IMG/VR virus record: IMGVR_UViG_3300049460_000121
Coordinates: 124,001 to 188,000 of that record
Strand: one strand, 5' to 3'
Source of the DNA: a virus
Length of the DNA stretch: 64,000 bases
Below, one piece after another: positions 6,371 to 31,624 of this stretch. Numbering within the stretch: position 1 is the first letter of the stretch; each line of letters starts with the position of its first letter. A program made the position numbers and the translations under genes. Below the pieces are notes generated by a model that was not told where the DNA came from, did no database searches, and was given only the letters and a program-made list of their open reading frames with translations.

Positions 6371-7093
6371 TTATTGACGAAGCAACGTCTCAATTTTCTC
6401 AGGTCGATCCGAAGGATTCACCAATGCCGCAGTGATGCCATCGTTTGTATACGAGCCGCCTAATTTGGCTGTGACGTTGGTAGCGCCGACACTCACGTTC
6501 CGAAGAGGAATGTAAAGCGGTGTGAGGGACTCGGTATCCTTCTTCGCTTCAGGCCTTTGTCGGAAGTACTTCGATGGATCTGCTGGATCCCGACAGAGGG
6601 CCGCTGAGACGTATTCCCAGATAGCAAAGTCAGCACCGATTGTCACACCGTTATACTTCTTGGTGTCGACAAACATTTTGGGGATATCTTCGTACCCGTA
6701 ATACCAAGGGATACGACCTTTACCCAACATTTCGGTGTAGATGCGGTGGGGGAGGTTGTCGTTGACCACCACATCGGTACTCGCGATAACAGCCGAACCT
6801 TTCTCGTAGAAAAGCTCGATATACGCCACATCATCAACGACGACCTTACCAATACGGTCCGGTTCAGTCCGGATCATAGCGGTCAACGTCGACGATGCGT
6901 AGTAGTTATCCTCCGTGATGATGGCCATGAAGCCGAGGATGTACGAGACATCCTCGATCTCAGCCAAGCCACGCTCAGAGAACCGTTCCGGGATATGAAT
7001 CCGAAGCGGCTCCTGAGCGATGAGCTTGGTACCCACCTTCTTTAGAGCGCTATCAACGCGAGCCTTGGAACGTGTAAATTCCTTAGACTGCAT
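6371..7093 (-). CDS. Hypothetical protein in head/RNAP cluster (240 aa)
   Basis: The product is a soluble alpha/beta protein beginning MQSKEFTRSKARVD. It has a segment of alternating strands (about residues 45-110) and no membrane helix or catalytic signature I recognise. It is tightly spaced between the prohead protease (eleven bases) and the 464-residue gene (twelve bases), so it is in the same operon. By position it corresponds to a gene between the protease and the RNAP beta subunit in phiKZ (the gp176/177 region), where structural proteins are encoded. I infer a virion or head-assembly role with low certainty. Confidence 0.75.
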   Translation of the reverse strand: MQSKEFTRSKARVDSALKKVGTKLIAQEPLRIHIPERFSERGLAEIEDVSYILGFMAIITEDNYYASSTLTAMIRTEPDRIGKVVVDDVAYIELFYEKGSAVIASTDVVVNDNLPHRIYTEMLGKGRIPWYYGYEDIPKMFVDTKKYNGVTIGADFAIWEYVSAALCRDPADPSKYFRQRPEAKKDTESLTPLYIPLRNVSVGATNVTAKLGGSYTNDGITAALVNPSDRPEKIETLLRQ

Positions 7094-11700: not shown

Positions 11701-12981
11701 GGAGTTGTACGGGTTGGTCAGCGACTTGAAGCTATCACTCACCCGGAACAGACGACGGTGTTCAGCCACCGACAACACGCCTTTAGAGGCGAGCTCATCC
11801 GCTTTGTTACGGATAGCCTCACCTTCTTTAGGCGTCTCAGCGACTCGTGACAACATGTTGATGTCGAGGCTGGTATTCGACTTCACCAGTTCGTCATCTT
11901 CGTTGGTCGACTCAACCCCTGACTCGGCATCTTTCAGCCTGTCCAATTCATTGAGTTCGTCTTCCAGACGCTTCATCTGCTCGGCATCAGTATCGTCGTT
12001 GCCAGAGATGAGTGCATCGTCTTCCGCATCCATCGCCTTGATCGTGGCTTCTGGATCTTCGTGGATGGTGTCTTCGTTGACTTCAGGTTCTGCCACCACT
12101 TCTTCAGCAATAGCCGAAGCCACAGGCGCAGCGGCCTGATGGATGATGGACATCAACTTCAATACACGCAGTTCGAACAGGGTAGGATCCATCCCACCTT
12201 TCTTACCTTCGCCTGCACGGAAGCCATCTAGCCAACTCAGGTTAATAGCAACCCAGGAGTCGTTACGACGAACGATGAAGTTGACCTTGCTGTACAACTC
12301 AGGAGAGAGCTTGGACAGCAGGGACTTCTCACGATGCTTACCGGCCCAGACAAACAGGTCAGCCAACATCTTCAGTTCTGGCGAGTTCAGCTTCTTCAGG
12401 TTCGACGGCGCAGGGTTAGCCGCAAACTCACGCAGGACCGTCAGGGCAGGCATGATAGCCGGCAAGTCGATCTCGATGAAGTGGGACCGTTTCGAATCAG
12501 GCCCAATCTCGTTGATCTTCTTCCACACCTGACTGTAGACGTTGTACCACTCGAAGTAACTCGCGCGGAAACTGATCGGGTAACGAACAAGGTGAGGAAG
12601 GAACGCGTAGTTGATGCAGACGAGACTGCGGGTGTCGTCCTCCAAGCGGACCATGTTCTTGAGCGGTCGGATCTGACGGTTCAGTCGACGGTACTCGGTC
12701 AGCAGAGTGTTAGGGTTGGCACCAGGTTTCGGGATTGGACCCCCGATGGCGTTCTCCATCTTGCTGACGTTATCGACGTAGACGATACCAGGCACAACGC
12801 GCAGCAGTTCGTCGTTCATCCGAGGACCGAGACGAACCGCATCCGTTGTAACGAAGTGGAAGATCGACTGCCGCGGCAGTTGCATCCGAGCGATCGGATA
12901 CACCACCGGGGTATCGAAATGCGATCGACGGAAAAGCGTAAACCGCTTCTCATAAATCGCAGGTTGTAACATGTCAGACAT
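8740..12981 (-). CDS. Phage multisubunit RNA polymerase, beta subunit N-terminal part (1413 aa)
   Basis: This is the main part of a beta-like subunit. About residues 940-1000 match the bacterial RpoB rifampicin-region block: NPIHQLREREVITFGGKGG against NPLSEITHKRRISALGPGG, then GDVGIITYLS against GPNIGLINSLS. Around 1335-1353, GMGVGDKLVVGNQGKS corresponds to RpoB VGDKMAGRHGNKG, whose two lysines line the active site. The protein ends about where RpoB residue 1130 would be, and the missing C-terminal clamp segment is encoded separately at 29018-29773. The N-terminal half is longer than in bacteria and carries an acidic insertion at about 285-385. Gene order (protease, unknowns, beta, beta-prime, transglycosylase) fits the virion-packaged polymerase of phiKZ-like phages. 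The start has GGGAGT upstream. Confidence 0.85.
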   Translation of the reverse strand: MSDMLQPAIYEKRFTLFRRSHFDTPVVYPIARMQLPRQSIFHFVTTDAVRLGPRMNDELLRVVPGIVYVDNVSKMENAIGGPIPKPGANPNTLLTEYRRLNRQIRPLKNMVRLEDDTRSLVCINYAFLPHLVRYPISFRASYFEWYNVYSQVWKKINEIGPDSKRSHFIEIDLPAIMPALTVLREFAANPAPSNLKKLNSPELKMLADLFVWAGKHREKSLLSKLSPELYSKVNFIVRRNDSWVAINLSWLDGFRAGEGKKGGMDPTLFELRVLKLMSIIHQAAAPVASAIAEEVVAEPEVNEDTIHEDPEATIKAMDAEDDALISGNDDTDAEQMKRLEDELNELDRLKDAESGVESTNEDDELVKSNTSLDINMLSRVAETPKEGEAIRNKADELASKGVLSVAEHRRLFRVSDSFKSLTNPYNSSQSLEEAMTMTEADVIVEPDVLTDDAVVVDKSLCLSRVDAMERQYIQKVMKKDILRVVMSMQRAPVAITDYRIEEEKDAMNDREIHTVRFVPAVGKPSTVKFSIPRLRDDGTFLYNGTSYRMRKQRADLPFRKIGPTRVALTSYYAKVFVDRSARKRFDYSAWVLNIIKDKCQNPADPDIKNAVISKCVDYKIQVPTIYTTLATEISYFDIGQNKFGFDYKHRVQKFGFTESDLKLEKKGWVLVGRNRKGALIMDPEEVIYQVADGHVGEDLGKLEMMLGIEVDKAPITMAEVKIYSKSIPIGVALAYMMGLEGLLSLLKLKPRRVGAGERLQLRPNEYAIRFKNESLIFDRTDRVASLIMGGFSLYHAHIREYNIGLFDEKDVYAAVLERAGIGRRYLNELDMMNTLFIDPITEDILKWMNEPTTFTGLLFRAVSLLTDEYVPSRRKDKDQQVESLERVRGYERVAGNIYETLSRSVRAYSARAATGNSSIVVNPNEIMNEIIKDPTTAPVNNINPIHQLREREVITFGGKGGRSRRAMTAKARLFTDEDMGFISEGSVDSGDVGIITYLSPNSNITSVRGTVRLFDKKRDGAASIMSTAALLSPAADGDDPKRVNFITVQHGHGIQAVGYETQGIRTGMERALVSRMGPEFASTASDTGKVIELSDTHIAVEYKDSVVRYPIGLVHTTAEGSYYPNQLVSKFKEGDTVKKFDVITYNTGFFKESPFDKHRVDYMVGCLGRIALREATYTVEDSSSLSVAFAERMGTVVSKPKSISINYEQNISGLLKVGDSVDLDTILCTIEDDLVGDASLFDDDTRETLRRWTDKSPRAAVVGTIAKIEVFYNGGYEDMSESLQIIVSESEKRRRREAKRLGHTYTTGEVDRNVRIDGYNLEEHQALIRIYISNPVGMGVGDKLVVGNQGKSTVGEILFGDNRTVEGEVIDMIFGCKSFIDRIITSPFIIGTTNTTLRYIGELAYEMYFGSDE

Positions 12982-12994: not shown

Positions 12995-14707
12995 CTACGG
13001 AAGTTGGAGGCTATCAAGTACGGTAGAGAACTCACCTTCGATTGGCTTCGCGACGTGTTCGAAACGACCGGTCAGGTTACGCACCACGAGGTCCGAGGTG
13101 TCGTAGCTCACAGATGCTCGTACCCGACCGTCTGGTTTGACCCATGCGTTACGCGTACCCAGATAGCCCTCGATCTCCTCCAGGGAGTCTTTGAGCATCA
13201 GGGTGGTCGCACTACCGGTGTCACCGTCGAAGTCAGCCCCAAGGCCTGCTAGGCGGCTTGGGTGTGGGGACTCAGAGTCGTGGTAGGTGGTCAAGCCTGG
13301 TTTCGGGTATTCCACAGCCAGGAAGTCATCGCCTTCCATCGCAGTCCACGTACTGTCGAGCTCTCTGCGCACTTCACCAATAGTAGTGGAACGGACATAG
13401 AGTCGGGACGGGTAGGTGGAGTCATCACCGGCAATTGGGTAACGTGTGATGGTGGTGAAGTGCTTCGCCCATTTGCTATAACCCGACAGGTAGATCAACT
13501 CCATCAGTGTGATGGGGTGAACGTCTTTTCTGTCGAAGCCTGGTGGGAGTTCGCTGATGTCGTGGAAGATACGGAAGGTGTCTTCGCCCAGATACACTAG
13601 AGCGAGGTAGCAACCCATGATCTCCACAGGACGATGGCGTGCTTCTACGTCGACGAGACTTTGGATCAATTCCCGCAGGCCGTCTTCGGTGGTCCACTTG
13701 TCCCGTTCATACGGAGGCAGACCCACCCAAGTGGTCGACAAGGTTTTCTTATCGATCAGAGGGATGTCACCTTCCATACCGCCCGAGACTTTCTCGAGCA
13801 CACCGACGCGCAACCAGTGGATGACCAACGGCGCCATGGAACTGGCTGCCTGATAGACGCCCAACACGGTGGAGTCGAAAGAAGGAACGTTCGGCGATTC
13901 CAGGTTTTGGCCCGAGGTGTTCATCGAGGTCAGTACGTTACGAGTACCGTCACGGACACGACGCGACATGAACTTGTCTTTAAAGAAGCCATCCTTGCCG
14001 CTGATGATCCCTTCAATATAAGCGTAGACTTCGTTCACGTTCATCTGGATGGAGCGGCGCACTGCGTCGTACGCAGAGGACTCCATGTCGGACGATTCGG
14101 TGATCGTGGAGGCGCTGGCAAGAATCCTGTAGTAGAAGTCATTGATTTCGTGTTTGGTTACGCGACCATCTTCACCGGCTTCAACGTCGCGAAGACCAGC
14201 AGGCATGACAATGAACTGCTTCAAGGTCATGCGGTGACGCCACCGCTCAATAAAAGCAATACGACCGTTACGCGCTGGGGAACTGTTCTTGTTAAAGCGC
14301 AGTTGATCCAGATGCTGCATAAAGAATGAGTAGCCTGTCGAAGCATCATCACTGATACTCGCGACAAAGTCACCAGAGTCTTTATCGAACTTCGCCGTGC
14401 GTTTGCCGTCGAGGATCTCACGATAGAGTTCCTTGAGTTGGCAGAGTTCGCGGTAGATCTTTGGATGGAGCACACGTACTTTCAGGTTGATCTTGCCGTA
14501 GAGTTCATCGCGCTCTTTCGACCCAACCAGTCCGAAGATCCGGGTGGAGAACAAACCATCATCGTGGAAATCGGTACTGGCACCGTCGAAGATGTCGAGA
14601 CGCGTGATCTCCGGAATCTGACGCAAGTCCTGAGGCTCTGCGTGGAGAATCCACAACATCACCGGGAGCATGTTCGTATTCATGCCGGGGAGTACATTTG
14701 TATTCAC
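12995..14707 (-). CDS. Phage multisubunit RNA polymerase, beta-prime N-terminal part (570 aa)
   Basis: The product contains the catalytic beta-prime signature at about residues 487-500, LGADFDGDTGSA, with all three metal-binding aspartates of NADFDGDQM kept. The upstream block FMSRRVRDGTRNVLTS (about 246-261) corresponds to LLGKRVDYSGRSVI in bacterial RpoC. The protein ends soon after the catalytic loop, so bridge helix and trigger loop must come from another gene, which I do not find in this window. The start is probably GTG at 14707 (GGAG upstream); an ATG at 14683 has no ribosome site. The first 16 codons are two imperfect copies of an eight-codon unit, (V/M)NTN(V/M)LP. It lies thirteen bases upstream of the beta gene, in one operon. 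Confidence 0.85.
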   Translation of the reverse strand: MNTNVLPGMNTNMLPVMLWILHAEPQDLRQIPEITRLDIFDGASTDFHDDGLFSTRIFGLVGSKERDELYGKINLKVRVLHPKIYRELCQLKELYREILDGKRTAKFDKDSGDFVASISDDASTGYSFFMQHLDQLRFNKNSSPARNGRIAFIERWRHRMTLKQFIVMPAGLRDVEAGEDGRVTKHEINDFYYRILASASTITESSDMESSAYDAVRRSIQMNVNEVYAYIEGIISGKDGFFKDKFMSRRVRDGTRNVLTSMNTSGQNLESPNVPSFDSTVLGVYQAASSMAPLVIHWLRVGVLEKVSGGMEGDIPLIDKKTLSTTWVGLPPYERDKWTTEDGLRELIQSLVDVEARHRPVEIMGCYLALVYLGEDTFRIFHDISELPPGFDRKDVHPITLMELIYLSGYSKWAKHFTTITRYPIAGDDSTYPSRLYVRSTTIGEVRRELDSTWTAMEGDDFLAVEYPKPGLTTYHDSESPHPSRLAGLGADFDGDTGSATTLMLKDSLEEIEGYLGTRNAWVKPDGRVRASVSYDTSDLVVRNLTGRFEHVAKPIEGEFSTVLDSLQLP

Positions 14708-14762: not shown

Positions 14763-17700
14763 ATGGCTAAGAAAGAAACAGTCAATTTCGACGATCTAAA
14801 CCTCGACGACATTGACTTTGGGGGCGACTTCGATTTCAACACGGACGGTGAAATCAAGTTTGATGCGGATGATAGCCGCTCTCCAATTGAGTCGTTTACC
14901 ACGTCTGTAAAAGATGGCCTGAAAGACCGAATCATGGACCGTGGTCTGATTCGTCGCCTTATGTCGTTCGCACTTCCGAAGGGCTATAGCCAGGCATTCA
15001 ACGCATACGATTCCTTGTCGAACGGTGTCGCCGACATCTACAAGGATAATGCGGCTGAAATGCAGCCGTACATGGCCAAGACCAGCCGCTTCCTCAAACA
15101 GCAAAATCCGATGTTCAAACGGCTGTTGCCGAAGAATGCTCGGCAGGCGTTGGAGGACAGCGAGAACGAAACCAGTTCGTGGTCAGGTGGTCAGGACGAC
15201 AAGCTCAGCCAGGACATCGGTGGCATTGATAAGTTGCTTGGGATGGAAGCCCGCAACAAACTCGATGACAACATCAGCGATGCTCGTCGTGAGGTTCGTG
15301 CTCGGAAGGAATTCAACACCACCACCGGCATCTCCATCGAGATGGGTAAGGCGATCGGTCGTCTGGTTCAATACCAAGACACCGTACTGATCAACTACCA
15401 CCGGAAGTCGTTGGAACTGAAGTACCGCCACCTCGATGTGTCGATGCGGATGTTCCACGGCGCTGAAGTGTTCCACAACGATTCCCTCGACTTGATGAAG
15501 GCGATCGGTAAGAACACCGCGTTGCCTGACTTCGTGAAGATGCGCAACACGGAGATCATCAAGGAACAACTCCGTCACCGTTTGGCGAACAACGTCATCG
15601 GTTCGGCCAGTAACTTCGCCAAGAAGCATTTGGGTTCGATCAAGGACAACCTGAGTCAATCGCTGGGTGGAGCACTTGGCACCATCAGCATGGCCAACTC
15701 CATGGGCGGTGGGATGTCGCGCTCTGCGATGGCCGGTCAAGCCGCAGGTGGTCTGGTTTCTGATGGCCTGGGTGACTTGCTGGAGTTCGCGATTAAGGAA
15801 GGGTTGACCAAACTCGGCCTTGGCAAACAAGCCGGGATGGTGAAGGACGGTGGTCGTTGGCTGCAAGACAAGCTCTCGGGTACGTCGCAGCGTCTGAACG
15901 ATTATGCTCGTAGCGAAACCAATTCCACCGGTTTGAAAGGTCAGTTCGAAGATTGGGCCAAGCGTCAACTCGACTCTTACTCGATCACGGACAAGATCAA
16001 CGGTGGTGGCGTTTATGCCCTCGATGAATCGGCCAAGTTCGACAACCTGTTCCATAAGACAGTTGTCGAGATCATTCCTGGTCAATTGTCCTCCATGGAG
16101 AAATGGCTTCGTACCATTGCCACGGGTGAGCAGCAAGACGAACATGCGTACAGTCATTACACGGGCGGCTTTGTTACTCGTGATGTGCTGAACCAGCAAC
16201 ACGTCGACATCGGCTTGAAAGCAGGTGCGGGTGACGCGGTTCGTAAGCAGCTCGACTACCAGCTCAAGGACATGGAAGCTGAAAGCCTGAGTCCTAAAGC
16301 GCGCCGTGCTCTGCGTGCCCGTCTCATGACGGACATGTCGAGTAACCGTGACTTCAACCCGAAGACCTACGTCAAACCGGACACCTGGACCAACGCTGCG
16401 CCGGAAGTCGCTGAGGAGCTGGTAGAGTTCTTCGCTGACAAGTACGGCATCAATATCGACGGCGAGTACGACGATAGCGATGAAGTGGCTAAAGACCTAC
16501 GTACCAAGGCGCGTGCTGGGTACTTGGACTTGGCTCCTCGTATCACCGACTACACCAGCCGTATGGCAGGTCTGTCTGAAGTGATCGGTCGTCGCTCCTG
16601 GCGTGAGCTGGGTCTGTCGAAGTATGACGGACGTAACGGCGACACCATCGACACGAACGCGATCTACGACAAGATCGCTAACGAAGGTGGTGACGAGTTC
16701 ATTGATGATCGGAAGGAGGAAGAGAAGCCCGAAGACTTCACTTGGTCGAAACAAGGTCTGAAGGACGGGATCAATGCCCGTGCTGACTTGGCTCGTAAGA
16801 AGCTGGCAGAGAAGGAAGCTGAGCAGAAGCGTCTCGAAGAGAAAGCGGCGAAAGCGGCTGCTGGTCTGCGCGTGGACGTGGATGGAGGCAAGACCACTCC
16901 AGGTGCCAAGGTTGGAGCTGCTCCAGCTCCCGTGATTGTAACCGGTCAGTTCAGTCTGGATCCTATCAGCATTAATCTGCTGACCAGTTCCCTGAGCGAA
17001 GTGTTGACTCAGTCCGGTGCTGGTCAATGGGAAATGACGCTGCCTGAAGTACTGGAAACAGTCGACGGTGGAACTCACGAACGTCTGGACGCTATCCTCG
17101 CCGCGGTGAAGGAGATCGATCCATGTGGTTGTGAAGGTCGTTCCCCTGGCGGACGCGTTGATTTCAACCTCGTTGAGAACGCTGCCTCTGCTCGCGATTA
17201 CGTTACCAAGCGTTATAAAGACGCTAACCTTCCTGCCCGTTGGGACATGGCTCGTGGTTACGTGACTGATCGCTACGATGAGTTCGGGATGCCTGAACGC
17301 ATCGATCAAGCACGGGGTTATGTCGAAGGTAAGTTTGACGAACACAACGTCAGAGGTCGTATCACTGACGCTCGCGATCAGGCGATGAGCAAGTACCATG
17401 GTCTCGACATCCCTGGCCGTATCGCCGATGCCCGTAATAAGGCGCAGGAGCAGTGGGATGGCTTTGACGCACAGGGTCGGCTGGATGCGGCTCGTCAGCG
17501 CGTTGGAGAGTTCGACGCCCAAGGGAAGTTAATAACTCTCGGCGATAAAGCCCGCGCCAGGTACGATGGGTTCGATGCGCAAGGGACGCTCGACAACGTT
17601 CGTGGACAAGCCGGCGAGATGTGGGACCAGATGGATGCTCGCGGCCGTGCTGAGTCTCTACGAGATAAAGCGCTAGGCAAGTGGGATGAGCTCGACGTCA

Positions 17701-20700
17701 AGGGTCGTGCAGAAGGTCTGCGTGATAAGGCGCGTGAGAAGCTGGGTGAGTTTGATCCTAAGGATGCTTTCGAGCGTGCGAAGGAATTCGTCAGCAATGC
17801 GTTCGGTGGCGCAACCGAAGGTAGTAGCGCGTACTGGGACCGCATGCGTGAAGTGTTGGCCGAGGAGCTCCATCGTGCCGGCTATGCAGGCGGTGGTGGA
17901 GAAGAAGGTCCTGAAGGCGAACCATCTCCTACCGGTAAGCGTGGAATCGGTGGTCGTATCTGGGGTGCTGCGAAGAGAGCGCCAGGTCAAGCCATCCGTG
18001 GTCTGGGCAGTTACCTGGGCTGGTCGTACCGCACGATGGGTACGATTGCAGGTACAGTAGGCCGTGGCGCTGTCGGTGGGGCTAAGCTTCCATTCAAGTC
18101 GATCAATGGTCTCGGTGTCTCCGATGTCCATGTGCAGGGTGAAGCTGAACCTGCATTGACTGCGAAGGACATCCGTCGCGGTTACTACTTCGACGTCAAC
18201 AGTAAGAAAGTCATTACCAGCCTTAAAGACATCACCGGACCTGTGAAGAACCGTGAAGGTGAGTTTGTTCTGACTCAGGAAGAGTTCGACAAAGGTCTGA
18301 TGTCTGGTGATGGCGAATCCCTTGCTGGATGGATTGGTCGTAAGGGTCTCGGTGCAGGTGTTGGTCTGATCGGACTCACTGGTCGGTACATGCAGAACAC
18401 CTACGGCTTGCTGGGCAAAGCGGTGAAAGGCGCCTTTAACTTGGCGTTCGATCAGTTCGTGCAATTCGATGCCTACTTCCCAGGTGATGAAGAACCCCGC
18501 ATCCGCTCGTCTCTGCTGAAGAAAGGTTTCTACCGCGACAAAGACGGCGCTCCGCTGAAGTCCCTCAAAGACATCACGGGTCCAGTGTTCGACATCGATG
18601 ACAATGAAGTCATCTCGCAAGAGGAGCTCGACAAGTACAAGTCGCTCTACACGCGCAACGGTTCGCTGTTGTTCACTGTGGGTCGTGGCTTGGTCTCGGC
18701 AACGGCGTGGGCCGGTGACCTGGCATTGAGAGGTGCTAAAGGTTACGCTCGCATGGCCGGTAAGTTCTACAAGGGATTGTGGAAAGGCGCTAAGGCCGTG
18801 GGTCGTGGTGTCAAGGGCATGGCCATGGGTCTGGCTGGTAAGCTGGGCTTCAAGTCCGGTACTCCTGAAGCGTCCGCTGCCGGTGGCATGTACGGTGGTG
18901 ACGAGGAACTCCATACCGCGTTGTTTGAAGTGGGTATCGAGCAACTCAAGATGCAACGGAGCATCTACGAGCTCCTCCGTAACAAGTTCAAGATGGAACA
19001 GAACGACAAGTGGGACCTCGATGGTGATGGTGACCGCGACAACTCTTGGGCGGACATCCTGAAACGTCGTAAGGCGAAGAAGGACGGTAAGGACGCACGA
19101 GGGACCGGTAACAACGCAGACGTAGTCGCAGCGATCGACAAGCTCGGTAAGAACTTGGACGGTGCTATCGATGAGCTCGGTGACCGTGTCGAAGAGGCTG
19201 GTGAAGACGGCATGTTGGATCAGGCCTCTGACCTGGCTGAAATCTCCGACAGTTGGGGTGGTGGCGAGGGTGAAGGTCGCCGCCGTCGTGGTCGGCGTGG
19301 TAGTCGAGGCGGCAGAGGTCGTGGTCGGTTGGGTCGTATTGGTGGTCGTCTCGGCGGGATGGGTTCTCGCATCGCGGGTTCTCGTGCAGCTGGCATGGCT
19401 GTCCGTGGCGGTACCATGGCCGTCGAAGGTGCGATGGCAGCCGGTAGTGCTTTGATGGGTACGGCGGCCATGGGTTCGATCATGGCGTCGGCTACGTCAG
19501 GTCTGATGGCTGCTGGTACTTTGGCCGCCGGCGCAGCTGCAACTGTGGGTGGTTGGCTTGCCGCAGGTGCAACGGCGGTAGGTGCGGTCTTGTCCGCTCC
19601 AGTGGTGTTGGCCATCGCAGCTGTGGCGGCTATCGGTTACGTCGGCTACCGTTGGTACAAATCCTCGCAAGCCAAGGACAACCCGATCTTCTATCTGCGG
19701 ATGACGCAGTACGGTGTTGCGCCTACAGACGAGACGCGGGTTAAGCAGATGTTGGCCTTGGAAGAGTTGCTCCTTCCGGGCGTGTCCTTCTCCGGTGAGA
19801 AAGCCAGCATCGATGCTTCGAAGGTTAGCATTCCAAAACTCATGGAGATCCTTGAGATCGAAGAGGGTGAGGACAAGCGCCTGAAGTGGGCATTGAAATG
19901 GTTGGCTCAACGTTTCCGTCCCGTGTTCCTCGCACACGTTGGCGGTATGAAGAAAACAGTGAAGTCCACTAAGCTCAGCGAAGCGGACCAACTGATCGAC
20001 GGGTCGGTGATCAAAGAGTTCCTCGAGATCGTTGACCTGAAGAACTTCGAGAAGATCTACAACGCCATCCTAGAGTCTCCGTTCGATTCGACGATGGGCT
20101 TTGGCGGTTCGTTGGACTGCGGCGCTAGCGACGTTGAGGACGCGTTCGCTCTGGTACGGGATCGGATCAAGGAGACCGAGAAGAAACCTGAAGACGCAGC
20201 TGCGGCTAAGGCTCAGGAGAAACCGAAGGACCTGGCCGATTCTGATGATCCAGCCGGTGAGTTGGGTAAAGCGGTAGCCGGCATTGCGGGCTCTGCGACG
20301 GCCATCATGGCAGCGCAAGCTGGGAAGACCAAGCGGGATGAAGGAGAACCGCTGGACATTGGCGGGATGATTCGCAGTGGGGTCGATCCTACTACGGCAT
20401 TACCTCCTACGGCTGCGGGTGCTGGGTTACTGATGACAGCCTTGCCATTACCTCCAGGTGGTCCGGTGTCGAAGGAAGTGGATGGGGCTACGGTCTCTAC
20501 TGCGGCTGCTTCTCCGGATGACCCTGCGGCGATGATGCGTTGGACGAACGAACCATTGAAAGCGGCAGATCCAATGTCGGTGGTAGGTAGTGCGGTTGGT
20601 AGTTTGTTGCAGAACTACTACCAAGTCCAGGCGAGTAAGGTGAAAGCCTACAATTCGTCGCTGGACATTCCGACGGCGGTGCGTTACCTGGCATACGGTG

Positions 20701-22739
20701 TGACCAGCTTCGAAGACGAGAAGTGCAAACAACTGCAACGAGTCGAAGAGCTCTATTGGGACTTCCTGAAATTCAACGGCTACGACAACGCGTTGATTGA
20801 TGGCGATCTCGCTGGTCTGGAAGACACGGTGGTCAGCATCTTCGCTCCGACTGGGGGTAATCCTCGGAACGTGGTGACTTGGCTGCGCTATCGTTTCATG
20901 CCAGCGTACCTGCAATACGCGATCTCTGTCCGTCGTCGTCTACCTGGTGATGTACGCCAAGCTCCTCGGAACCTGACCAGTGCGCTGATGCGCGACGTAT
21001 TACTGGAAACGGCTCAGGCGGTAGACAGTGAGTCCGGTCAATCGGTCTGGTTGAGTATGACTAGTCCTTGGCCTGACTACGTGTTGGGTAAAGACGCTGG
21101 CGAGGCGACTCCTTACATCGATGCATTACCTCAGTCCCTGAAGACGCTTACCGTCGATGGTCTGAAGAACCTCATCGGTAAGGCCGCTGGTTCGAAAGCT
21201 GAAGAAGCCGATCCTGAGATTGAAGGCAGTAACCTGAACCAAGGTTCGCCTAACCAAGAGAAGGAAGAAGGTGGTCTCTTCAGTAACGCCGTGAGTTCGG
21301 TGAAGAAATTCTTCGGCTTCGGTGGCGATCCAGCAGGTACAGCCGCAGGTGCTAACTCTAGTGCAGGTGGTCAGTACGGTCCTCAGGGCGGTGGTCCTGG
21401 TTATACACCTATCCCAGGCATGGGTGGCGGTAGTGGCGGAGGTGGCGGTGCTACTGGTTCTCCAGCAGCTCCTGGTGGCGTGGAGGTTACTCACCCAGGC
21501 GGTGGTTCGGGTGGCGACATCAACTCGCTTCCGCAATCTAACGGCAGTGGCTGGGAGGCGATGAAAGGAATCATCATCGGTGCTGCGAAGATGGCGGGTT
21601 TCGATCCGTTCATTGCAGCGAACGTGGCCGCTGTGGAATCTCGGTTCCTACCACGGGCAGGCGCAGGTACTTCGTCGGCGAAAGGTCTCTACCAATTCGT
21701 CAACGGTACATGGAAGGACATGCTGCGTAAGTACGGCAAGAAGTACGGTATCGCGCCGAACACCCACCAGTTTGACCCACGGGCGAACGCATTGATGGGG
21801 ATGGAATACCTGAAAGAGAACTACGCCTACTTGAAAAGTAAGGTGAAAGGCCCTATCACGGATACCGCCCTCTACAGTGCTCACTTCCTCGGGGCGGGTG
21901 GTGCGCGTAAGTTCTTGACAGCTCCAGGTTCGGCTAACGCAGAGGACGTGGTAGGCAGTTCAGCAGTTAAGGCTAACGCATCGGTGTTCCGCGAACCAAC
22001 TGGGCAGAAGGGTGTTTATGGTCGTGTTCGGACTGTGGCAGAGACCATGGCTGAGCTCGACAAACGCATGAAGAACATGCAGAAAGTGCATGACCTCAAG
22101 CCCGGTGAGAAACCTGTCGTTGCAGAAGGTACTGAAGCCAAAGGTGTCGATAACGCTCCTCAGAACAGCGAGGGCGAATCCGGCGGCGCGGCTCCTGAGA
22201 CCGGGATGGATACCACAGCAGCACAAGGAGGTGGAGGCAATACTCAGGCTCAGGATGTTGGCGCTACTGCCAATGGCGCAGCTTCTGGCTCGTCTGCGGC
22301 TGTCAACACCCAGCAGGCCCCTGAAGGTGGATCCGCAGCGCCTACCGGTTCTGTTGACTCCCCATCCTCAGCTCCGTCTACTCCAACGATCTCGCAATCC
22401 ACTACGTCTCAAAACCAGAACACCACGGCTGCTTCTACCGCGGAAATGGCAGCGAGCGTGGGTCCGTTGCTGCAACAGCAACTGGAAGTGCAGAAGTCGA
22501 TGGATGGTAGCCTGAAGGAAATCCGGGAATACCTGAAAGCCATGTCAGCGCAGTCACCAGCCCCAGCGGCATCGGGTAGTGAGTCACCGCTACCTCAGCC
22601 AGGAAGTAAGGGTGGGCAGCGTCAGTGGGCAGCTGAGGACGATCCATCCGTGGTATCCACTCAGTCCCGTTCCACACCGCCGAGCACCGGTAGCGGTCGT
22701 AACCCGATCAACACCCGTCGCACCAACGCCGTAACGTAA
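14763..22739 (+). CDS. Giant virion protein with lytic transglycosylase domain, phiKZ gp181-like (2658 aa)
   Basis: It should act in the particle to open peptidoglycan during entry. Order of parts: acidic N-terminus (FDDLNLDDIDFG); helical region; about ten tandem 22-residue repeats (810-1013); two copies of a module with SLKDITGPV (about 1119-1230 and 1235-1340); a DxDxDG loop, DLDGDGDRDN (about 1419); an Arg/Gly-rich patch (about 1500-1540); a long Ala/Gly hydrophobic block (about 1540-1635); two related modules (about 1640-1740 and 1970-2070); Gly/Ser linkers; then an SLT domain (about 2270-2410) with AAVESRF giving catalytic Glu2292, and GLYQF. The C-terminus is low-complexity Ser/Thr/Ala/Gln with a short helix. 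It is divergent from the RNAP operon; the start has GAGAGG upstream. Size, domain and position match phiKZ gp181. Confidence 0.8.
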   Translation: MAKKETVNFDDLNLDDIDFGGDFDFNTDGEIKFDADDSRSPIESFTTSVKDGLKDRIMDRGLIRRLMSFALPKGYSQAFNAYDSLSNGVADIYKDNAAEMQPYMAKTSRFLKQQNPMFKRLLPKNARQALEDSENETSSWSGGQDDKLSQDIGGIDKLLGMEARNKLDDNISDARREVRARKEFNTTTGISIEMGKAIGRLVQYQDTVLINYHRKSLELKYRHLDVSMRMFHGAEVFHNDSLDLMKAIGKNTALPDFVKMRNTEIIKEQLRHRLANNVIGSASNFAKKHLGSIKDNLSQSLGGALGTISMANSMGGGMSRSAMAGQAAGGLVSDGLGDLLEFAIKEGLTKLGLGKQAGMVKDGGRWLQDKLSGTSQRLNDYARSETNSTGLKGQFEDWAKRQLDSYSITDKINGGGVYALDESAKFDNLFHKTVVEIIPGQLSSMEKWLRTIATGEQQDEHAYSHYTGGFVTRDVLNQQHVDIGLKAGAGDAVRKQLDYQLKDMEAESLSPKARRALRARLMTDMSSNRDFNPKTYVKPDTWTNAAPEVAEELVEFFADKYGINIDGEYDDSDEVAKDLRTKARAGYLDLAPRITDYTSRMAGLSEVIGRRSWRELGLSKYDGRNGDTIDTNAIYDKIANEGGDEFIDDRKEEEKPEDFTWSKQGLKDGINARADLARKKLAEKEAEQKRLEEKAAKAAAGLRVDVDGGKTTPGAKVGAAPAPVIVTGQFSLDPISINLLTSSLSEVLTQSGAGQWEMTLPEVLETVDGGTHERLDAILAAVKEIDPCGCEGRSPGGRVDFNLVENAASARDYVTKRYKDANLPARWDMARGYVTDRYDEFGMPERIDQARGYVEGKFDEHNVRGRITDARDQAMSKYHGLDIPGRIADARNKAQEQWDGFDAQGRLDAARQRVGEFDAQGKLITLGDKARARYDGFDAQGTLDNVRGQAGEMWDQMDARGRAESLRDKALGKWDELDVKGRAEGLRDKAREKLGEFDPKDAFERAKEFVSNAFGGATEGSSAYWDRMREVLAEELHRAGYAGGGGEEGPEGEPSPTGKRGIGGRIWGAAKRAPGQAIRGLGSYLGWSYRTMGTIAGTVGRGAVGGAKLPFKSINGLGVSDVHVQGEAEPALTAKDIRRGYYFDVNSKKVITSLKDITGPVKNREGEFVLTQEEFDKGLMSGDGESLAGWIGRKGLGAGVGLIGLTGRYMQNTYGLLGKAVKGAFNLAFDQFVQFDAYFPGDEEPRIRSSLLKKGFYRDKDGAPLKSLKDITGPVFDIDDNEVISQEELDKYKSLYTRNGSLLFTVGRGLVSATAWAGDLALRGAKGYARMAGKFYKGLWKGAKAVGRGVKGMAMGLAGKLGFKSGTPEASAAGGMYGGDEELHTALFEVGIEQLKMQRSIYELLRNKFKMEQNDKWDLDGDGDRDNSWADILKRRKAKKDGKDARGTGNNADVVAAIDKLGKNLDGAIDELGDRVEEAGEDGMLDQASDLAEISDSWGGGEGEGRRRRGRRGSRGGRGRGRLGRIGGRLGGMGSRIAGSRAAGMAVRGGTMAVEGAMAAGSALMGTAAMGSIMASATSGLMAAGTLAAGAAATVGGWLAAGATAVGAVLSAPVVLAIAAVAAIGYVGYRWYKSSQAKDNPIFYLRMTQYGVAPTDETRVKQMLALEELLLPGVSFSGEKASIDASKVSIPKLMEILEIEEGEDKRLKWALKWLAQRFRPVFLAHVGGMKKTVKSTKLSEADQLIDGSVIKEFLEIVDLKNFEKIYNAILESPFDSTMGFGGSLDCGASDVEDAFALVRDRIKETEKKPEDAAAAKAQEKPKDLADSDDPAGELGKAVAGIAGSATAIMAAQAGKTKRDEGEPLDIGGMIRSGVDPTTALPPTAAGAGLLMTALPLPPGGPVSKEVDGATVSTAAASPDDPAAMMRWTNEPLKAADPMSVVGSAVGSLLQNYYQVQASKVKAYNSSLDIPTAVRYLAYGVTSFEDEKCKQLQRVEELYWDFLKFNGYDNALIDGDLAGLEDTVVSIFAPTGGNPRNVVTWLRYRFMPAYLQYAISVRRRLPGDVRQAPRNLTSALMRDVLLETAQAVDSESGQSVWLSMTSPWPDYVLGKDAGEATPYIDALPQSLKTLTVDGLKNLIGKAAGSKAEEADPEIEGSNLNQGSPNQEKEEGGLFSNAVSSVKKFFGFGGDPAGTAAGANSSAGGQYGPQGGGPGYTPIPGMGGGSGGGGGATGSPAAPGGVEVTHPGGGSGGDINSLPQSNGSGWEAMKGIIIGAAKMAGFDPFIAANVAAVESRFLPRAGAGTSSAKGLYQFVNGTWKDMLRKYGKKYGIAPNTHQFDPRANALMGMEYLKENYAYLKSKVKGPITDTALYSAHFLGAGGARKFLTAPGSANAEDVVGSSAVKANASVFREPTGQKGVYGRVRTVAETMAELDKRMKNMQKVHDLKPGEKPVVAEGTEAKGVDNAPQNSEGESGGAAPETGMDTTAAQGGGGNTQAQDVGATANGAASGSSAAVNTQQAPEGGSAAPTGSVDSPSSAPSTPTISQSTTSQNQNTTAASTAEMAASVGPLLQQQLEVQKSMDGSLKEIREYLKAMSAQSPAPAASGSESPLPQPGSKGGQRQWAAEDDPSVVSTQSRSTPPSTGSGRNPINTRRTNAVT
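17190..17800 (+). repeat. Tandem 66-base repeats encoding 22-residue units
   Basis: Within the giant virion protein, about ten degenerate units follow the pattern GRxxxARxxAxxKYDxFDxx. Examples are FDAQGRLDAARQRVGE, MDARGRAESLRDKALGKW and LDVKGRAEGLRDKAREKL. They would form a long amphipathic charged helix or helical-repeat rod. Confidence 0.75.
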
Positions 22740-27370: not shown

Positions 27371-27381
27371 AGGAGACAGCC

Positions 27382-27810
27382 ATGTCTGGTGCATTGGAAG
27401 GGGAAGTATTCGTCGCCCAACAGGGTGACGTTGATCCCAGCGAAGTTGTAAAGTTTACTCAACGCTTGCGCTACCAAATGGTCGGCGATCTGACCGACCA
27501 TGGTGGTAACGTCCGGGGCGACAACAAAGAACTGGCCAGCCTGCTGCGTGACATGGACCGTTCGGCCCTGACGCAACGTGAGCTGAACATTCAGGAAGAC
27601 AGCCGTCAAGACGGCCGCCTTGCCATTGAAGCCTACAAGGAATTCCGTGGGATGCTTGGACAAGACCCATTCTCGCAAGGTGGGACTATCCAACGTCGTC
27701 GCGATCCTACGGAAGGACTGGTTCTCCCGCCGGCTGAGTTGGTTCCGGGTGAGGACCATCAGGGGGAGCAGTCCCTGAATATTGACGATTATGTATCGCC
27801 TGAAACATAG
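27382..27810 (+). CDS. Hypothetical acidic protein (142 aa)
   Basis: A lone plus-strand gene in a minus-strand region, with AGGAG eight bases before the ATG. The protein is polar, with helices about residues 20-100 and an acidic tail ending LNIDDYVSPET. The last 104 bases overlap the 3' end of the convergent minus-strand gene (27707-28522), an unusual antiparallel overlap. Of the two reading frames there, this one looks more protein-like. No family recognised; a small virion or DNA-packaging protein is possible. Confidence 0.7.
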   Translation: MSGALEGEVFVAQQGDVDPSEVVKFTQRLRYQMVGDLTDHGGNVRGDNKELASLLRDMDRSALTQRELNIQEDSRQDGRLAIEAYKEFRGMLGQDPFSQGGTIQRRRDPTEGLVLPPAELVPGEDHQGEQSLNIDDYVSPET

Positions 27811-28522
27811 CCTTGTTGTAGCAGACCCAGGCCGTAGGAACGTGGATCAGGGATACCCATTCTTGGAGTACCCCGGAGCGACACGCAAACGGGTCATTGA
27901 CCCCTTTCTCCGGTGCAGGGTCTTTCCCCAGTGGCGAGATGCGAGAGGTCATGATCACGTTTTCAGGGATCTTGTTCTTGAGCAACTCGTCCTGGTGGTG
28001 CTTCAACCAATCTTCGACGTCATACAGCGCGATCATCTCGAACTGATGCTCGAAGCGTTTCACCGTCAAATCCTTCCAGGGCACGTACGCCCCAAAGACA
28101 CGCGTTGGCAGCGGCATGTAATGCTGCATGCACTTAACGACGATGTCCCGCTCAGCCTGCGACAGATCGGAATACGGATAGAAGTTGATGTAGATGTCCA
28201 ATGCATCGAACTCCACACCACGCTCCAATGCTGGCAGCTCCTTCTTAATGTCCATTCGAATCTGGTAGACAAAGTCTGTCATCTTCGCATAGGCAATAGT
28301 ATCCCCGTTCCGTTCAGCGAACGCTTTCTGATACGCATCCCACTCGACCATGCCGTCTGTAGCTTTTTCGAAGTTGTCGTGTTGCCGGAAACGGTAGTAC
28401 TCAGTCGAGGCCAGCACTTCTGCCAGCCCATCCTTTTCCTCTTCGCCCATCATGCGGACGACCGTGGCGTGGCGAACATCAAGCAACATCTCGATATCGA
28501 TCAGTGCTCTCTGATTAGCCAT
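27707..28522 (-). CDS. Hypothetical protein in RNAP beta C-terminal operon (271 aa)
   Basis: It begins MANQRALIDIEMLL. The start is directly after the stop of the 161-residue gene (GTGTAAATGG), with AAGG upstream. The protein is soluble and rich in aromatic residues in its centre (DIYINFYPYSDL; DWLKHHQDEL). The final 25 residues are Pro/Gly-rich and are encoded by sequence also used by the opposite gene. It is the last gene of a minus-strand operon that begins with the RNAP beta C-terminal piece (29773). By order it would sit near phiKZ 147/148. The function is unknown. Confidence 0.7.
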   Translation of the reverse strand: MANQRALIDIEMLLDVRHATVVRMMGEEEKDGLAEVLASTEYYRFRQHDNFEKATDGMVEWDAYQKAFAERNGDTIAYAKMTDFVYQIRMDIKKELPALERGVEFDALDIYINFYPYSDLSQAERDIVVKCMQHYMPLPTRVFGAYVPWKDLTVKRFEHQFEMIALYDVEDWLKHHQDELLKNKIPENVIMTSRISPLGKDPAPEKGVNDPFACRSGVLQEWVSLIHVPTAWVCYNKAMFQAIHNRQYSGTAPPDGPHPEPTQPAGEPVLP

Positions 28523-29008
28523 TTACACCTTCCCTGGTTTCTTCCCAGCCATCAGACGATCGATGCCGAGATCAGCCAGTCGCTTGTTGTACTGACCCAT
28601 CGACAGCGAGTAGAGGAACATCAGGAGTGGGTTCTTACCCAGCCCCGATTGAATCTCTTCAGCCGTTTGGCTCATCTGTTTGTTCTCAGATGGAATGCCT
28701 TGAGCGTTCTTCAACCACGACATGGATTCCGCTTGGCGTCTGGCTACATCGTTCTGGAGGGTGGTCAGACCGAGCAGGTAAACGTATTCGTTCACCATCT
28801 CGATGATCCACTCCATGTCGAACTGTTCGGCGGAGAGTTTCTTCCACACACGCAGCCCACCGGTTTCAGTGGTGATCGAGTTACGCCAAACGATACTGCG
28901 GGCCAGCAACAACAGCTTGGAGGCGCGAATGTACGCCTCGTTGCCGAAGGGTTCAGTGAAGCGGGAGATAATGGAATCGGCCACTTCGATGTCATTAGGC
29001 TTTTGCAT
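28523..29008 (-). CDS. Hypothetical helical protein (161 aa)
   Basis: It starts MQKPNDIEVADSII, with AAAGGACGTCT before the ATG. It is helical throughout, with a run MLLFxYSL-like segment near the C-terminus (NPLLMFLYSLSMGQ) that is amphipathic rather than clearly membrane-spanning. It lies ten bases after the RNAP beta C-terminal gene and abuts the 271-residue gene, so all three form one operon. Possible RNAP- or virion-associated partner; no family recognised. Confidence 0.75.
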   Translation of the reverse strand: MQKPNDIEVADSIISRFTEPFGNEAYIRASKLLLLARSIVWRNSITTETGGLRVWKKLSAEQFDMEWIIEMVNEYVYLLGLTTLQNDVARRQAESMSWLKNAQGIPSENKQMSQTAEEIQSGLGKNPLLMFLYSLSMGQYNKRLADLGIDRLMAGKKPGKV

Positions 29009-29017
29009 AGACGTCCT

Positions 29018-29773
29018 TTAAGGTCGTTCAGCGCCCACGGTGCCAGGAGCAAAGGCATCGTTAGGAACTGGTGTCCCAGGTTTCAGGTTGTTGCCCAGGT
29101 GCATGCAGTTGAAGAACACGGACATGGTGTCGATGGATTTGGCATTACCCAAGCCAGACACTTGTTCCAGCGTACATTCGCCGTTCTCAACCAGTTGACG
29201 ACGCATCTCACGATAAGCCGCTTCGTCACCACCCCGTACCTTGATCTTCTCCATGATGGTCCGGTCAAGGCCACGAGAAGACAACGAGCTGAGTTCAGGT
29301 GCCGATACACGACTACCCTTCGATTGGCTCGTAGGTTGGTTGGTGAGGTCATCGATACGCTGGTTGTGTTCAGGGATCGAACGCTTCTTGACAACTGTCT
29401 GCGCTTGACGACGCACGGGCAGGTCCAGCACCGGGTAAGGGTGAGGTGTCACGTATTGCAGACCGGTGGCACCGTCCGTCATGACCAAGCGGTGGGTGAG
29501 CGACTTGCCGAGGCTACGCACCAGTTGGAAGTTACGGGCGATGGAGATCCGTGCCTTGCCGAGGTTAGGAACATAAAACGGGAGCATCTCCCGGTTCTTG
29601 ATCTCTTCCGGGGTAGAGGCTGGAGCCAGACGTTTAAGGTACGTCTCGAACTCCTTGTCAGACATGGCAGCGAACTTAGCCGCTAGCAGGTCTGGGTTTG
29701 TCTTATCGCCAGGAATAATCTTGGCGACGTTGTCCAAGATGAACTTGGTTACCTTCTCACGTTTAGCGTTCAC
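29018..29773 (-). CDS. Phage RNA polymerase beta subunit, C-terminal part (251 aa)
   Basis: This gene encodes the clamp end missing from the beta gene at 8740-12981. About residues 90-105, HRLVMTDGATGLQYVTP matches RpoB KMHARSTGPYSLVTQQP. Then a segment with SRVSAPELSSLSSRGL and TIMEKIKVRGGDEAAYREM corresponds to RpoB QRFGEMEVWALEAYGA and TLQEMLTVKSDDVNGRTKM. The start is probably GTG at 29773, since AAAGGG lies at good spacing; a GTG at 29794 is possible. In phiKZ the virion polymerase has the same split (gp178 with gp149). Which polymerase of the phage it belongs to is inferred from the presence of the matching N part. Confidence 0.75.
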   Translation of the reverse strand: MNAKREKVTKFILDNVAKIIPGDKTNPDLLAAKFAAMSDKEFETYLKRLAPASTPEEIKNREMLPFYVPNLGKARISIARNFQLVRSLGKSLTHRLVMTDGATGLQYVTPHPYPVLDLPVRRQAQTVVKKRSIPEHNQRIDDLTNQPTSQSKGSRVSAPELSSLSSRGLDRTIMEKIKVRGGDEAAYREMRRQLVENGECTLEQVSGLGNAKSIDTMSVFFNCMHLGNNLKPGTPVPNDAFAPGTVGAERP

Positions 29774-29806
29774 GGGATCACCCTTTGGTTGCACTTACAG
29801 CATATA

Positions 29807-29830: not shown

Positions 29831-29850
29831 ATACGTCACGATGCAACGGC

Positions 29851-30120
29851 TTACGCCGAAGGGAGATTGAAGCGAACCAGGGTCGGAAGGACATGACCAC
29901 GGAAGTACTTCAACCACTGTTCCGGTTGGAGATCATCGATCAAGCATTCACGCTCGTCGAGGGTAGGAACTGGCGCCTTACTCAACTGGATACGGAAGTA
30001 CTTGTTGAGGGAGACCATCTCGTCCCCGTGAGTGTTCTTGTAGGTGGAACGGAACACATCGCCGAGCACTTGCTTCTGCTCGCTGAGCAGGTCTTCAACA
30101 TCTTGGGATAGGTGGGTCAT
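29851..30120 (-). CDS. Hypothetical protein (89 aa)
   Basis: A small protein starting MTHLSQDVEDLLSEQ, with AAGGAATTGCTGTC before the ATG. It looks like two helices with a strand-like middle. It lies 37 bases downstream of the UvsX-like gene and before a hairpin, so it is probably in the UvsX operon, where an accessory role in recombination would be plausible. No family recognised. Confidence 0.7.
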   Translation of the reverse strand: MTHLSQDVEDLLSEQKQVLGDVFRSTYKNTHGDEMVSLNKYFRIQLSKAPVPTLDERECLIDDLQPEQWLKYFRGHVLPTLVRFNLPSA

Positions 30121-30157: not shown

Positions 30158-31624
30158 TTAGTCAGCGATGATTTCAGGCAAGCCCATTTCTTTACGTGAT
30201 TTTGGATACCAGTACGGGTGATACTTACCAACCCGCATACGGAGAATGTCCAGGGTCGACAGGAACGGAACCGCAGCACCTTCTTCAATGGTCGTGTGCC
30301 AGAAGCGGGTGTTCAAGAGCAGATCCCAATCGTAGCCCATGGCCTTGATTTCGTTGTACAGTGCTTCTGGTTCGCAGTGGTAGGAATCATCGATGTCCGT
30401 GCGGTACGTGAAAGTCCAGTGCATCTCCATAAGGATTTGCGCGGCGCGTTGAGCAGCGAACGATTCGCGCAGCTTCTTACGGACGTTGGTACGACGGATG
30501 GACATCTCAGGAACCAACGCCAAGGCGTAGCTCTGAAGGTTACCCACCAAACCGTAACGACCCGCTTCACGCAACAGATAGATGAAGTTGGACATGTACG
30601 GCAGCCAGCCTTCCTTCTGACTGACGATGATCGGCAATGGGATACCCGACGGACCGTACTTCCCACGCATGTTGGTGAGTTTCAGTTCGATGAGATCCGC
30701 TTGCTTGGTTTCATCACCAGGCTCGTACGGGAATTCGGCTACACCCTTCTCCTGCATCTGCGTGAAGTGGGTGATTGCATAACAGTTGCCGGTCTGGAAG
30801 CTCAGGTTCTCAGGCACGCGTTTGAGTTTCACGTCGCCTTTGAGGTGGTTGAGCGTCTTGATGTTCGGCTTGCGCGGATCAAGCTGGTACTGTTGACCAA
30901 CATGCGCCGTGCTCAATAGATAGATACCGTGCTTCGCCGTGAGGTCTGGCGCTTGCTCGACGATCTGCGATTTACCGCTGTTGACACGCATGGCCAACAT
31001 GTTCAGTTCGGATGTACCGACGCTGCCTGTGTCCAGCATTTCGACGGCCGATTCAGCCTTGAGGCCTGACAGGGAATCCCAGAACTCGAGCAACGGTACG
31101 AAGTATTCGTACGGCTTGCCGGTGCCAGTATCCATCAGTTCCAGCTGGACGCGAGGTTCTTCCTTCAAACGCTTCTTGGCGTATTCTTTGAGGACGTTGA
31201 ACAGCTCGGTGCCGTTGTAGTCCACCGACGAGGTGAAGAACATCCGGTCTTTAGCGATCAGCGACTCCGGTACTGGGAAGCCGGGCAGGGGCAGACCCAT
31301 GGACAGGCGTGTGATGCGCTCTACACGTTCCTGGACGATCGTCGTCTCAGTGTCGTGGACATGCATAACTGAGGCTGAGAAAGCGCGCAACATAGCACCG
31401 CCGAAACCGGCAGCGATGGTGGACTTAAACATGTTCGGCAAAGCAGCGATGCAGGAGAATGGAGCCAGCCCGCCGTTCAGGATCATTTGCCCTTTATGAC
31501 CCTTGACCCAGTTACCGGCCGAGACGTCCAGGATGGTTCCTGTGTTCGGCATGGGGTAGAACGGTGCAGCAGGTTTCTTCCATGCGGCTTTAAACATATA
31601 TTGCTCCGGTTTGATATGTAGCAC
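30158..31624 (-). CDS. UvsX/RecA-like recombinase (488 aa)
   Basis: This RecA-fold ATPase would act in phage DNA recombination and replication. It has a Walker A-like loop, AALPNMFKST (about residues 60-69; T4 UvsX has GPSKSFKSN), an acidic residue in DTETT (93), a Walker B-like strand LEFWDSLSGL (Asp183; UvsX FIDSLGNL), and LLSTAHV, which resembles UvsX IAINHTY. A later strand, IELKLTNMRGKYG, fits the ATPase core end. It is longer than UvsX (about 390), with about 150 C-terminal residues of unknown role. Position next to RNase H recalls phiKZ gp152. A DnaB-like helicase is the main alternative, but I see no primase or helicase signature. Confidence 0.6.
   Translation of the reverse strand: MLHIKPEQYMFKAAWKKPAAPFYPMPNTGTILDVSAGNWVKGHKGQMILNGGLAPFSCIAALPNMFKSTIAAGFGGAMLRAFSASVMHVHDTETTIVQERVERITRLSMGLPLPGFPVPESLIAKDRMFFTSSVDYNGTELFNVLKEYAKKRLKEEPRVQLELMDTGTGKPYEYFVPLLEFWDSLSGLKAESAVEMLDTGSVGTSELNMLAMRVNSGKSQIVEQAPDLTAKHGIYLLSTAHVGQQYQLDPRKPNIKTLNHLKGDVKLKRVPENLSFQTGNCYAITHFTQMQEKGVAEFPYEPGDETKQADLIELKLTNMRGKYGPSGIPLPIIVSQKEGWLPYMSNFIYLLREAGRYGLVGNLQSYALALVPEMSIRRTNVRKKLRESFAAQRAAQILMEMHWTFTYRTDIDDSYHCEPEALYNEIKAMGYDWDLLLNTRFWHTTIEEGAAVPFLSTLDILRMRVGKYHPYWYPKSRKEMGLPEIIAD

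Follow-up and report, generated by a model that had tools for sequence, protein, structure and literature searches.

A separately encoded C-terminal chain of the virion RNA polymerase beta subunit in a phiKZ-type jumbo phage

The window analysed here is the whole stretch of 64,000 nucleotides, corresponding to bases 124001-188000 of a virus record of 267,467 bases. The features considered, both within the window and elsewhere in the genome, are collected in Table 1. We use betaN and betaC for the N-terminal and C-terminal chains of the beta subunit of the virion RNA polymerase (vRNAP).

Table 1. Genes of the virion polymerase, their neighbours and other marker genes. Positions are those of the window unless marked G000.
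Feature	Position	Strand	Assignment and remarks
Head maturation protease	5571..6359	-	PHROG 3014, E 1.1e-60; placed as gp175 is in the phiKZ gene order
vRNAP beta-prime C-terminal chain, 240 aa, phiKZ gp176 family	6371..7093	-	PHROG 2926 ('virion structural protein'), E 5.5e-72
vRNAP beta N-terminal chain (betaN), 1413 aa, phiKZ gp178 orthologue	8740..12981	-	PHROG 3148, gp178 identity, hhalign, fold
vRNAP beta-prime N-terminal chain, 570 aa, phiKZ gp180 family	12995..14707	-	PHROG 2986, E 1.7e-183; DFDGD at residue 492
2658-aa tail protein, part of the unrelated block between the beta genes	14763..22739	+	PHROG 3201 tail fiber protein, E 6.9e-280
271-aa protein, phiKZ gp147 family	27707..28522	-	PHROG 3328, E 4.4e-34; alignment A6; 0 nt after the 161-aa gene
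161-aa protein, phiKZ gp148 positional counterpart	28523..29008	-	begins 9 nt past betaC; in one cluster with 18 further downstream ORFs
vRNAP beta C-terminal chain (betaC), 251 aa, phiKZ gp149 orthologue	29018..29773	-	PHROG 3233, gp149 identity, hhalign
89-aa protein upstream of betaC, 77 nt away	29851..30120	-	PHROG 6181, E 0.0014 at best
UvsX-like recombinase, 488 aa, phiKZ gp152 positional counterpart	30158..31624	-	PHROG 97, E 3.6e-20
Middle beta-prime chain (fifth vRNAP chain)	G000:69106-70389, outside the window		PHROG 2962, E 2.5e-102
Non-virion beta C-terminal gene, one uninterrupted frame	G000:77801-79933		PHROG 3295, 10-688 of 698
Chimallin	G000:92236-94095		PHROG 4795, E 7.8e-43

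The betaC open reading frame has 251 codons and begins with GTG at 29773. An in-frame GTG at 29794 is an alternative start and would give a protein of 258 amino acids. The start at 29773 is supported by a AAGGGTGAT-like ribosome-binding site just upstream and by the presence of ATG at this position in two relatives (L010 and L013). The 77-nt gap upstream of the gene (29774-29850) contains a hairpin with a perfect 8-bp stem (CGTGGCTG/CAGCCACG) and, after it, TATATG, and this hairpin region is near-identical in L007-L009 and different in L010 and L013. Repeats around betaC are only short and imperfect. Scans for sigma-70 promoters (2 sites, 4.3 expected) and for terminators (6, 5.5 expected) stayed at chance level, and a search of the window with Rfam gave no match at the gathering score.

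betaC matches PHROG 3233, 'RNA polymerase beta subunit', with an E-value of 2.3e-69, residues 1-231 being aligned to positions 1-223 of the 225 in the profile. In a tblastn search of phage records, phiKZ gp149 was 36% identical to it (2e-38). A check for a profile match to some other family, proposed in the preliminary description, returned RNA polymerase beta. No match of betaC to PHROG 3295, the non-virion beta C-terminal family, was seen within E 1, and Pfam gave neither betaC nor betaN a match concerning RNA polymerase within the same limit. Single sequences found nothing relevant among PDB chains using phmmer, and a profile search of the PDB sequences with betaC reached RpoB only at E 0.46, behind five matches to designed proteins. 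The C-terminal part of PHROG 23439 ('hydrolase') matches phiKZ gp149 (E 8.9e-8), which fits the fusion of an HD domain to betaC reported for Bacillus jumbo phages in the available part of a review (PMC7598289).

betaN matches PHROG 3148 with an E-value of 0, and phiKZ gp178 is 35% identical to it by tblastn. Three alignments were used. Alignment A2 holds 19 gp149-type proteins, i.e. the window protein and 18 from at least 24 betaC loci, where the near-copies L007, L009, L012, L015 and L025 and the short L030 were left out. Alignment A4 holds the C-terminal approximately 965 residues of 19 gp178-type proteins (the window protein and 18 of 45 betaN loci), and A5 covers residues 442-1341 of 14 bacterial RpoB sequences, with E. 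coli first, followed by 13 of the best 80 of at least 595 loci.

Using hhalign, betaC residues 10-196 align to E. coli RpoB 1139-1310 (E 1.6e-5) and betaN residues 936-1410 to RpoB 512-1134 (E 7.7e-10). The two matches do not overlap on RpoB and leave four residues in between, the local alignment ends behind this 1134/1139 junction being uncertain by some residues. As betaN aligns to RpoB only up to 1134, it is without the C-terminal part. From the alignments we estimate that the two chains tile beta with a junction near RpoB 1134/1139. It had been proposed in the preliminary description that the 251-residue protein carries the RpoB C-terminal part without which the 1413-residue protein ends, and that the junction lies at RpoB 1130-1200; the alignments bear out the former, and the guessed range contains the measured junction.

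Control runs of hhalign were carried out locally, with slightly different settings. The gp149-type profile scored 47.3 against RpoB, compared with at most 25.0 in 100 column-permuted targets, 21.5 with the target reversed and 20.8 with the query reversed. The betaC-RpoB match is therefore not a chance result, since all controls remain far below the true score. For the gp178-type profile the score was 91.0, compared with at most 25.6 in 30 permuted runs and 19.8 and 17.5 in the reversed ones. When E. coli RpoB was scanned against the PHROGs, residues 1159-1309 matched PHROG 3233 (3e-6), and the best stretch for PHROG 3148 was 653-838 (6.4e-12). With the last 343 residues of RpoB alone, 1008-1134 matched PHROG 3148 (E 0.0037), ending at profile position 1422 of 1424. 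In the alignment, phiKZ gp178 and the corresponding protein of Pseudomonas phage pPa_SNUABM_DT01 (DT01) end at the same place as betaN. Lysines K1065 and K1073 of E. coli RpoB have a catalytic role, and hhalign aligns K1343 and K1351 of betaN with them. Two conserved lysines have been described in the non-virion chain gp71-73 as well (PMC8287921, in the part available).

The AlphaFold2 model of betaN residues 451-1413 had a pLDDT of 81.9 and a pTM of 0.79. Model residues 1-937 were placed on residues 5-966 of S. aureus beta (Z 17.4, 675 aligned, rmsd 6.0), and Foldseek matched the model to E. coli RpoB with an E-value of 1.8e-27. All matches listed, i.e. the top 50 by Z and 50 by Foldseek, are RNA polymerase (RpoB) entries of bacterial or plastid origin according to their titles. 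Because the 451-1413 model covers RpoB from near its start, the first approximately 450 residues of betaN would lie ahead of the beta body. This region (residues 1-450) has an acidic stretch around 290-370. In phage 201phi2-1 the betaN homologue undergoes cleavage at TFE-275, for which the prohead protease is presumably responsible (PMC5694885, in the part available).

The betaC model was poor (pLDDT 56.8, mostly low confidence), for which reason the reading of betaC rests on the profile alignment. Perhaps the chain folds around its partners. Foldseek gave no match under E 0.001 for this model (best 0.11); the 23 best PDB matches are all RNA polymerase or RpoB entries, none of them significant. 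When the Foldseek candidates were re-aligned, the non-virion beta of AR9 came out best (7s01 chain C 436-649, Z 6.1, rmsd 21.8 over 171; 7s00 chain C 435-528, Z 6.0, rmsd 3.7 over 94), followed by E. coli RpoB 1134-1342 (8sy7, Z 3.7, rmsd 22.6 over 175). These Z values (3.7-6.1) are low, within the middling range of the tool, and can be taken as supportive only.

All five vRNAP chain families are found in the genome (PHROGs 3233, 3148, 2986, 2926 and 2962). For the product of 6371..7093, the role as C-terminal part of beta-prime was taken from PMC5105663, where, in the part available, SPN3US gp244 is given as the phiKZ gp176 homologue and the missing beta-prime C-terminus. Furthermore, four families of the non-virion polymerase are present (PHROGs 2987, 3295, 3015 and 3209). 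None of 14 control genomes matched the chimallin family, PHROG 4795. The genome thus holds what characterises Chimalliviridae, a chimallin gene together with both virion and non-virion multisubunit polymerase families. Because of this gene content we assign the virus to the phiKZ-type jumbo phages with both polymerases, and it should form a nucleus.

Two observations concern further polymerase-like sequences. Outside the window, a 94-aa open frame at G000:C1:233581-233706 (-) has a short match to PHROG 2987 (beta-prime, E 1.3e-5) and is perhaps a polymerase gene fragment. Within the window, positions 52077-53111 (-) encode a 344-aa HNH endonuclease-like protein (PHROG 3377, E 8.2e-14). Over residues 23-155 this protein is similar to the non-virion chain gp73 family (PHROG 23982, E 1.5e-5). 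Its similarity to the phage's own non-virion chain is weak by blastp (best E 0.003), and it may be a homing endonuclease with captured exon sequence.

We consider it almost certain that the 251-aa protein is betaC of the virion polymerase in a phiKZ-type, chimallin-encoding jumbo phage, completing betaN at approximately RpoB 1134. betaN would then consist of an extra N-terminal region of about 450 residues, followed by the beta body through the two conserved active-site lysines and a stop at about RpoB 1134, and betaC would provide the rest of beta, from RpoB 1139 onward, as a separate polypeptide. In cellular enzymes this part closes beta against the beta-prime clamp. Going by experiments on phiKZ and SPN3US, betaN, betaC and the three beta-prime pieces would make up one enzyme, and the assembled vRNAP would be packaged into the head and, once injected together with the DNA, transcribe the early genes. 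At the level of sequence, we regard the homology of the two beta chains, their complementarity and the presence of the five chain families as demonstrated.

Directly downstream of betaC follow the 161-aa and 271-aa genes. The preliminary description saw these two unknown genes and betaC as an operon of their own. Their tight packing (9 nt and 0 nt) agrees with this; the isolation does not, since they are part of a longer minus strand run, 24777-31624. The 161-aa protein had no PHROG match, and tblastn of the phage collection found nothing relevant for it (the best match, at E 0.04, being to the portal protein of a Gordonia phage). The profiles of the two neighbour families were also compared with PDB sequences; one was without a match within E 1, and the best match of the other (E 0.11) was unrelated.

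A first downstream ORF, of at least 100 aa and overlapping betaC or lying at most 16 nt after it, is present at 26 of the 30 betaC loci. Nineteen of these 26 ORFs, including the 161-aa protein, form one cluster by phmmer single linkage. The second downstream ORF is present at 21 of the 30 loci, and all 21 belong to one cluster. The first ORF is different and longer in L018, L021, L024, L025 and L029, that of L006 and L028 clusters with none, and L011, L012, L027 and L030 have no downstream ORF of this definition. The E-values derive from tiny databases and serve for clustering only, and starts were set to the first start codon of each frame. Alignment A6 was made from 16 of the 21 members of the second-ORF cluster and A7 from 15 of the 19 in the first-ORF cluster.

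In phiKZ and DT01 the order is RNase H, a small gene, an opposite-strand gene, UvsX, one or two small genes, betaC, gp148 and gp147, so that the place of UvsX relative to betaC is the same as in the window; the phiKZ gene in the position of UvsX, gp152, is annotated without a function. LucasX has the order from RNase H to gp147 with one extra gene, and the end of it (betaC, gp148, gp147) is also found in SA002 and pVp-JHP1101. The linkage of betaC, gp148 and gp147 is conserved, and linkage itself shows no function.

The 161-aa and 271-aa genes could encode dedicated partners of vRNAP, for example assembly or packaging factors made together with betaC, and the frequency with which members of the two clusters follow betaC is in favour of this. 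However, a pull-down with mCherry-gp180 in phiKZ recovered gp178, gp80 and gp149 and, in the part of the paper available, names gp219 as the extra associated protein, not gp147 or gp148 (PMC10612078). Likewise, the SPN3US betaC mutant misses, besides the vRNAP chains, only proteins of unknown function that are not named as gp147 or gp148 homologues in the available part of PMC5694885. Additionally, the linkage could equally come from the conservation of a gene block, with UvsX and RNase H close by, and the first ORF is different, unclustered or absent at 11 betaC loci (those named above). A dedicated partner role is thus rather unlikely. The literature search, covering a part of the matching papers, found no treatment of gp147 and gp148, and PHIKZ147-149 are absent from the main text of PMC10449902.

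The assignment of betaC to the virion enzyme has to be weighed against its being part of the second, non-virion polymerase. Neither enzyme can do without a beta C-terminal region, and the best structural match of betaC is a chain of the AR9 non-virion polymerase. However, the genome has a non-virion beta C-terminal gene of its own (PHROG 3295, Table 1), and the 251-aa protein matches PHROG 3233, not 3295. In phiKZ, the orthologue gp149 carries the annotation of a structural head protein and, in the pull-down cited above, comes down with gp180 (PMC10612078). We therefore find a non-virion role very improbable. The non-virion beta (phiKZ gp123 and gp71-73; AR9) also consists of at least two chains with a homologous C-terminal region, but it is split elsewhere: the best stretch for PHROG 3295 is RpoB 1031-1292, so this family runs across the 1134 junction. 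According to the available part of the review, the beta of the vRNAP comprises an N-beta and a C-beta chain, and beta is divided at different places in the two phage enzymes, in neither of them where the archaeal subunit is divided (PMC7598289).

The coding regions of the two virion beta chains, betaN and betaC, are 16,039 nt apart. The preliminary description gave 17 kb, slightly too much, and was right about the separation as such, as well as about an unrelated block and strand switches in between, where plus strand frames occupy 14763-22739 and 22788-24737. Its comparison with phiKZ gp178 and gp149 is correct to the level of orthology.

Matches by tblastn were found in 271 phage records for betaC and in 288 for betaN; at least 17 records thus have a gp178 match and are without a gp149 match. 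The organism tallies show that these gp178-only records include Staphylococcus phages. For AR9, gp189 and gp078 are listed as two virion beta pieces in the part of PMC5312081 available. The gene distances were compared in the window and in 19 phage records picked from the matching ones; LucasX was excluded, as the start of its record falls between betaN and betaC. In all 19 records the genes are separate, on one strand and 14.3-29.6 kb apart. Read in the direction of transcription, betaC lies ahead of betaN in 11 of the 20 cases (19 records and window), with gaps of 14.3-18.5 kb, and behind it in the other nine, with gaps of 26.9-29.6 kb. From this we infer that the beta split predates the rearrangement of the two gene blocks. 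A betaC match within the flanks (at most 10 kb on each side) was found at just one of 45 IMG/VR betaN loci (L055), at the far end and on the other strand. The genes are also apart in IMG/VR contig 3300044878_000136, whose two proteins are 95-96% identical to those of the window. The chance that one beta gene was broken by a frameshift, an assembly rearrangement or a lost exon is negligible, even though such errors do occur in viral metagenome contigs and the beta gene of the relative L060 is spread over overlapping frames, as the consistent separation in these records and the common end of betaN, phiKZ gp178 and the DT01 protein speak against it.

The virion polymerase with a separate betaC can be compared with three described systems. 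phiKZ has the same five chain families (gp178 and gp149, gp180, gp80, gp176), with gp148-like and gp147-like genes after betaC and a gene at the UvsX place (gp152) upstream. It differs in that its chains are only 35-36% identical to those of the window, that betaN precedes betaC with 26.9 kb between them, whereas in the window betaC comes first at 16.0 kb, and that gp179 lies between gp180 and gp178, whereas those two genes are 13 nt apart here. In the available parts of the respective papers, the phiKZ vRNAP is described as at least gp178, gp149, gp180 and gp80 (PMC8287921), present in 7-30 molecules per virion (PMC10612078). The genes for the phiKZ polymerases are spread over separate operons, with distances of up to 112.8 kb (PMC10449902).

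The top-ranked named relative for both chains is DT01 (43.2% and 41.5%), with the same order of betaC and betaN and a similar distance (15.0 kb). Its gp093 and gp082 have been identified as vbetaN and vbetaC (PMC8541153, in the part available). SPN3US, which has a different host, shows the same division of beta and beta-prime according to its published description, in the parts available, with gp241 (betaN), gp218 (betaC), gp240, gp42 and gp244. A gp218 amber mutant yields non-viable, virion-like particles in which none of the five vRNAP chains is present (PMC5694885), betaC thus being essential there and required for packaging of the enzyme, and knock-out of gp218, gp244 or gp241 leaves no vRNAP chain in the particles (PMC5694885, PMC5105663). 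No solved structure of this type of vRNAP was found among the PDB sequence matches or the partly surveyed paper titles; the only vRNAP structure among those titles belongs to coliphage N4, whose enzyme is of a different kind.

Interruptions of betaN between conserved codons were observed at 11 of 45 loci, some of which hold only a partial gene (L052, L053, L057, L059, L062, L064, L066, L070, L071, L072 and L073). In window-protein numbering the sites are at approximately 1039 in ten loci, 555 in three and 1342 in one (L072), the last of which adjoins the lysine of the GVGDK motif. The 1039 site is the known site of PhiPA3 gp210 (PMC11620839, in the part available). A twelfth locus, L060, has the appearance of a frameshift. 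Rfam group I intron matches were found for nine of the ten interruptions at 1039 (two in tandem in L071), for two of the three at 555 and for that at 1342 in L072. At the end of betaN, neither an interruption nor a group I intron was seen in the 45 loci. More group I introns are located just upstream of betaN (L053 9385-9713, L064 9428-9761, L066 9466-9782, L071 9431-9760), where the beta-prime N-terminal gene is expected, possibly near the DFDGD codons.

The split of beta and the wide spacing of its genes are already known, the former from phiKZ, SPN3US, DT01 and a review and the latter from phiKZ; the arrangement is general in this phage group and has been in print for years. The beta split found here will by itself not change views in the field and will hardly surprise specialists. 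The betaN introns may merit more attention than the split. A wider reading, in which betaC and the gp148-like and gp147-like genes would form a conserved unit with dedicated factors for making or packaging the polymerase, and the betaN introns would represent ongoing gene fragmentation, is distinctly unlikely; if true, the polymerase would be built around a co-produced C-terminal beta chain. With betaC as a chain of the virion enzyme, the record takes its place among the jumbo phages that form a nucleus, and the two beta chains are a further, diverged pair of sequences, at about 43% and 41.5% identity to the top-ranked named phage. The estimated 1134/1139 junction, together with the two opposite gene orders, constrains how the beta split arose.
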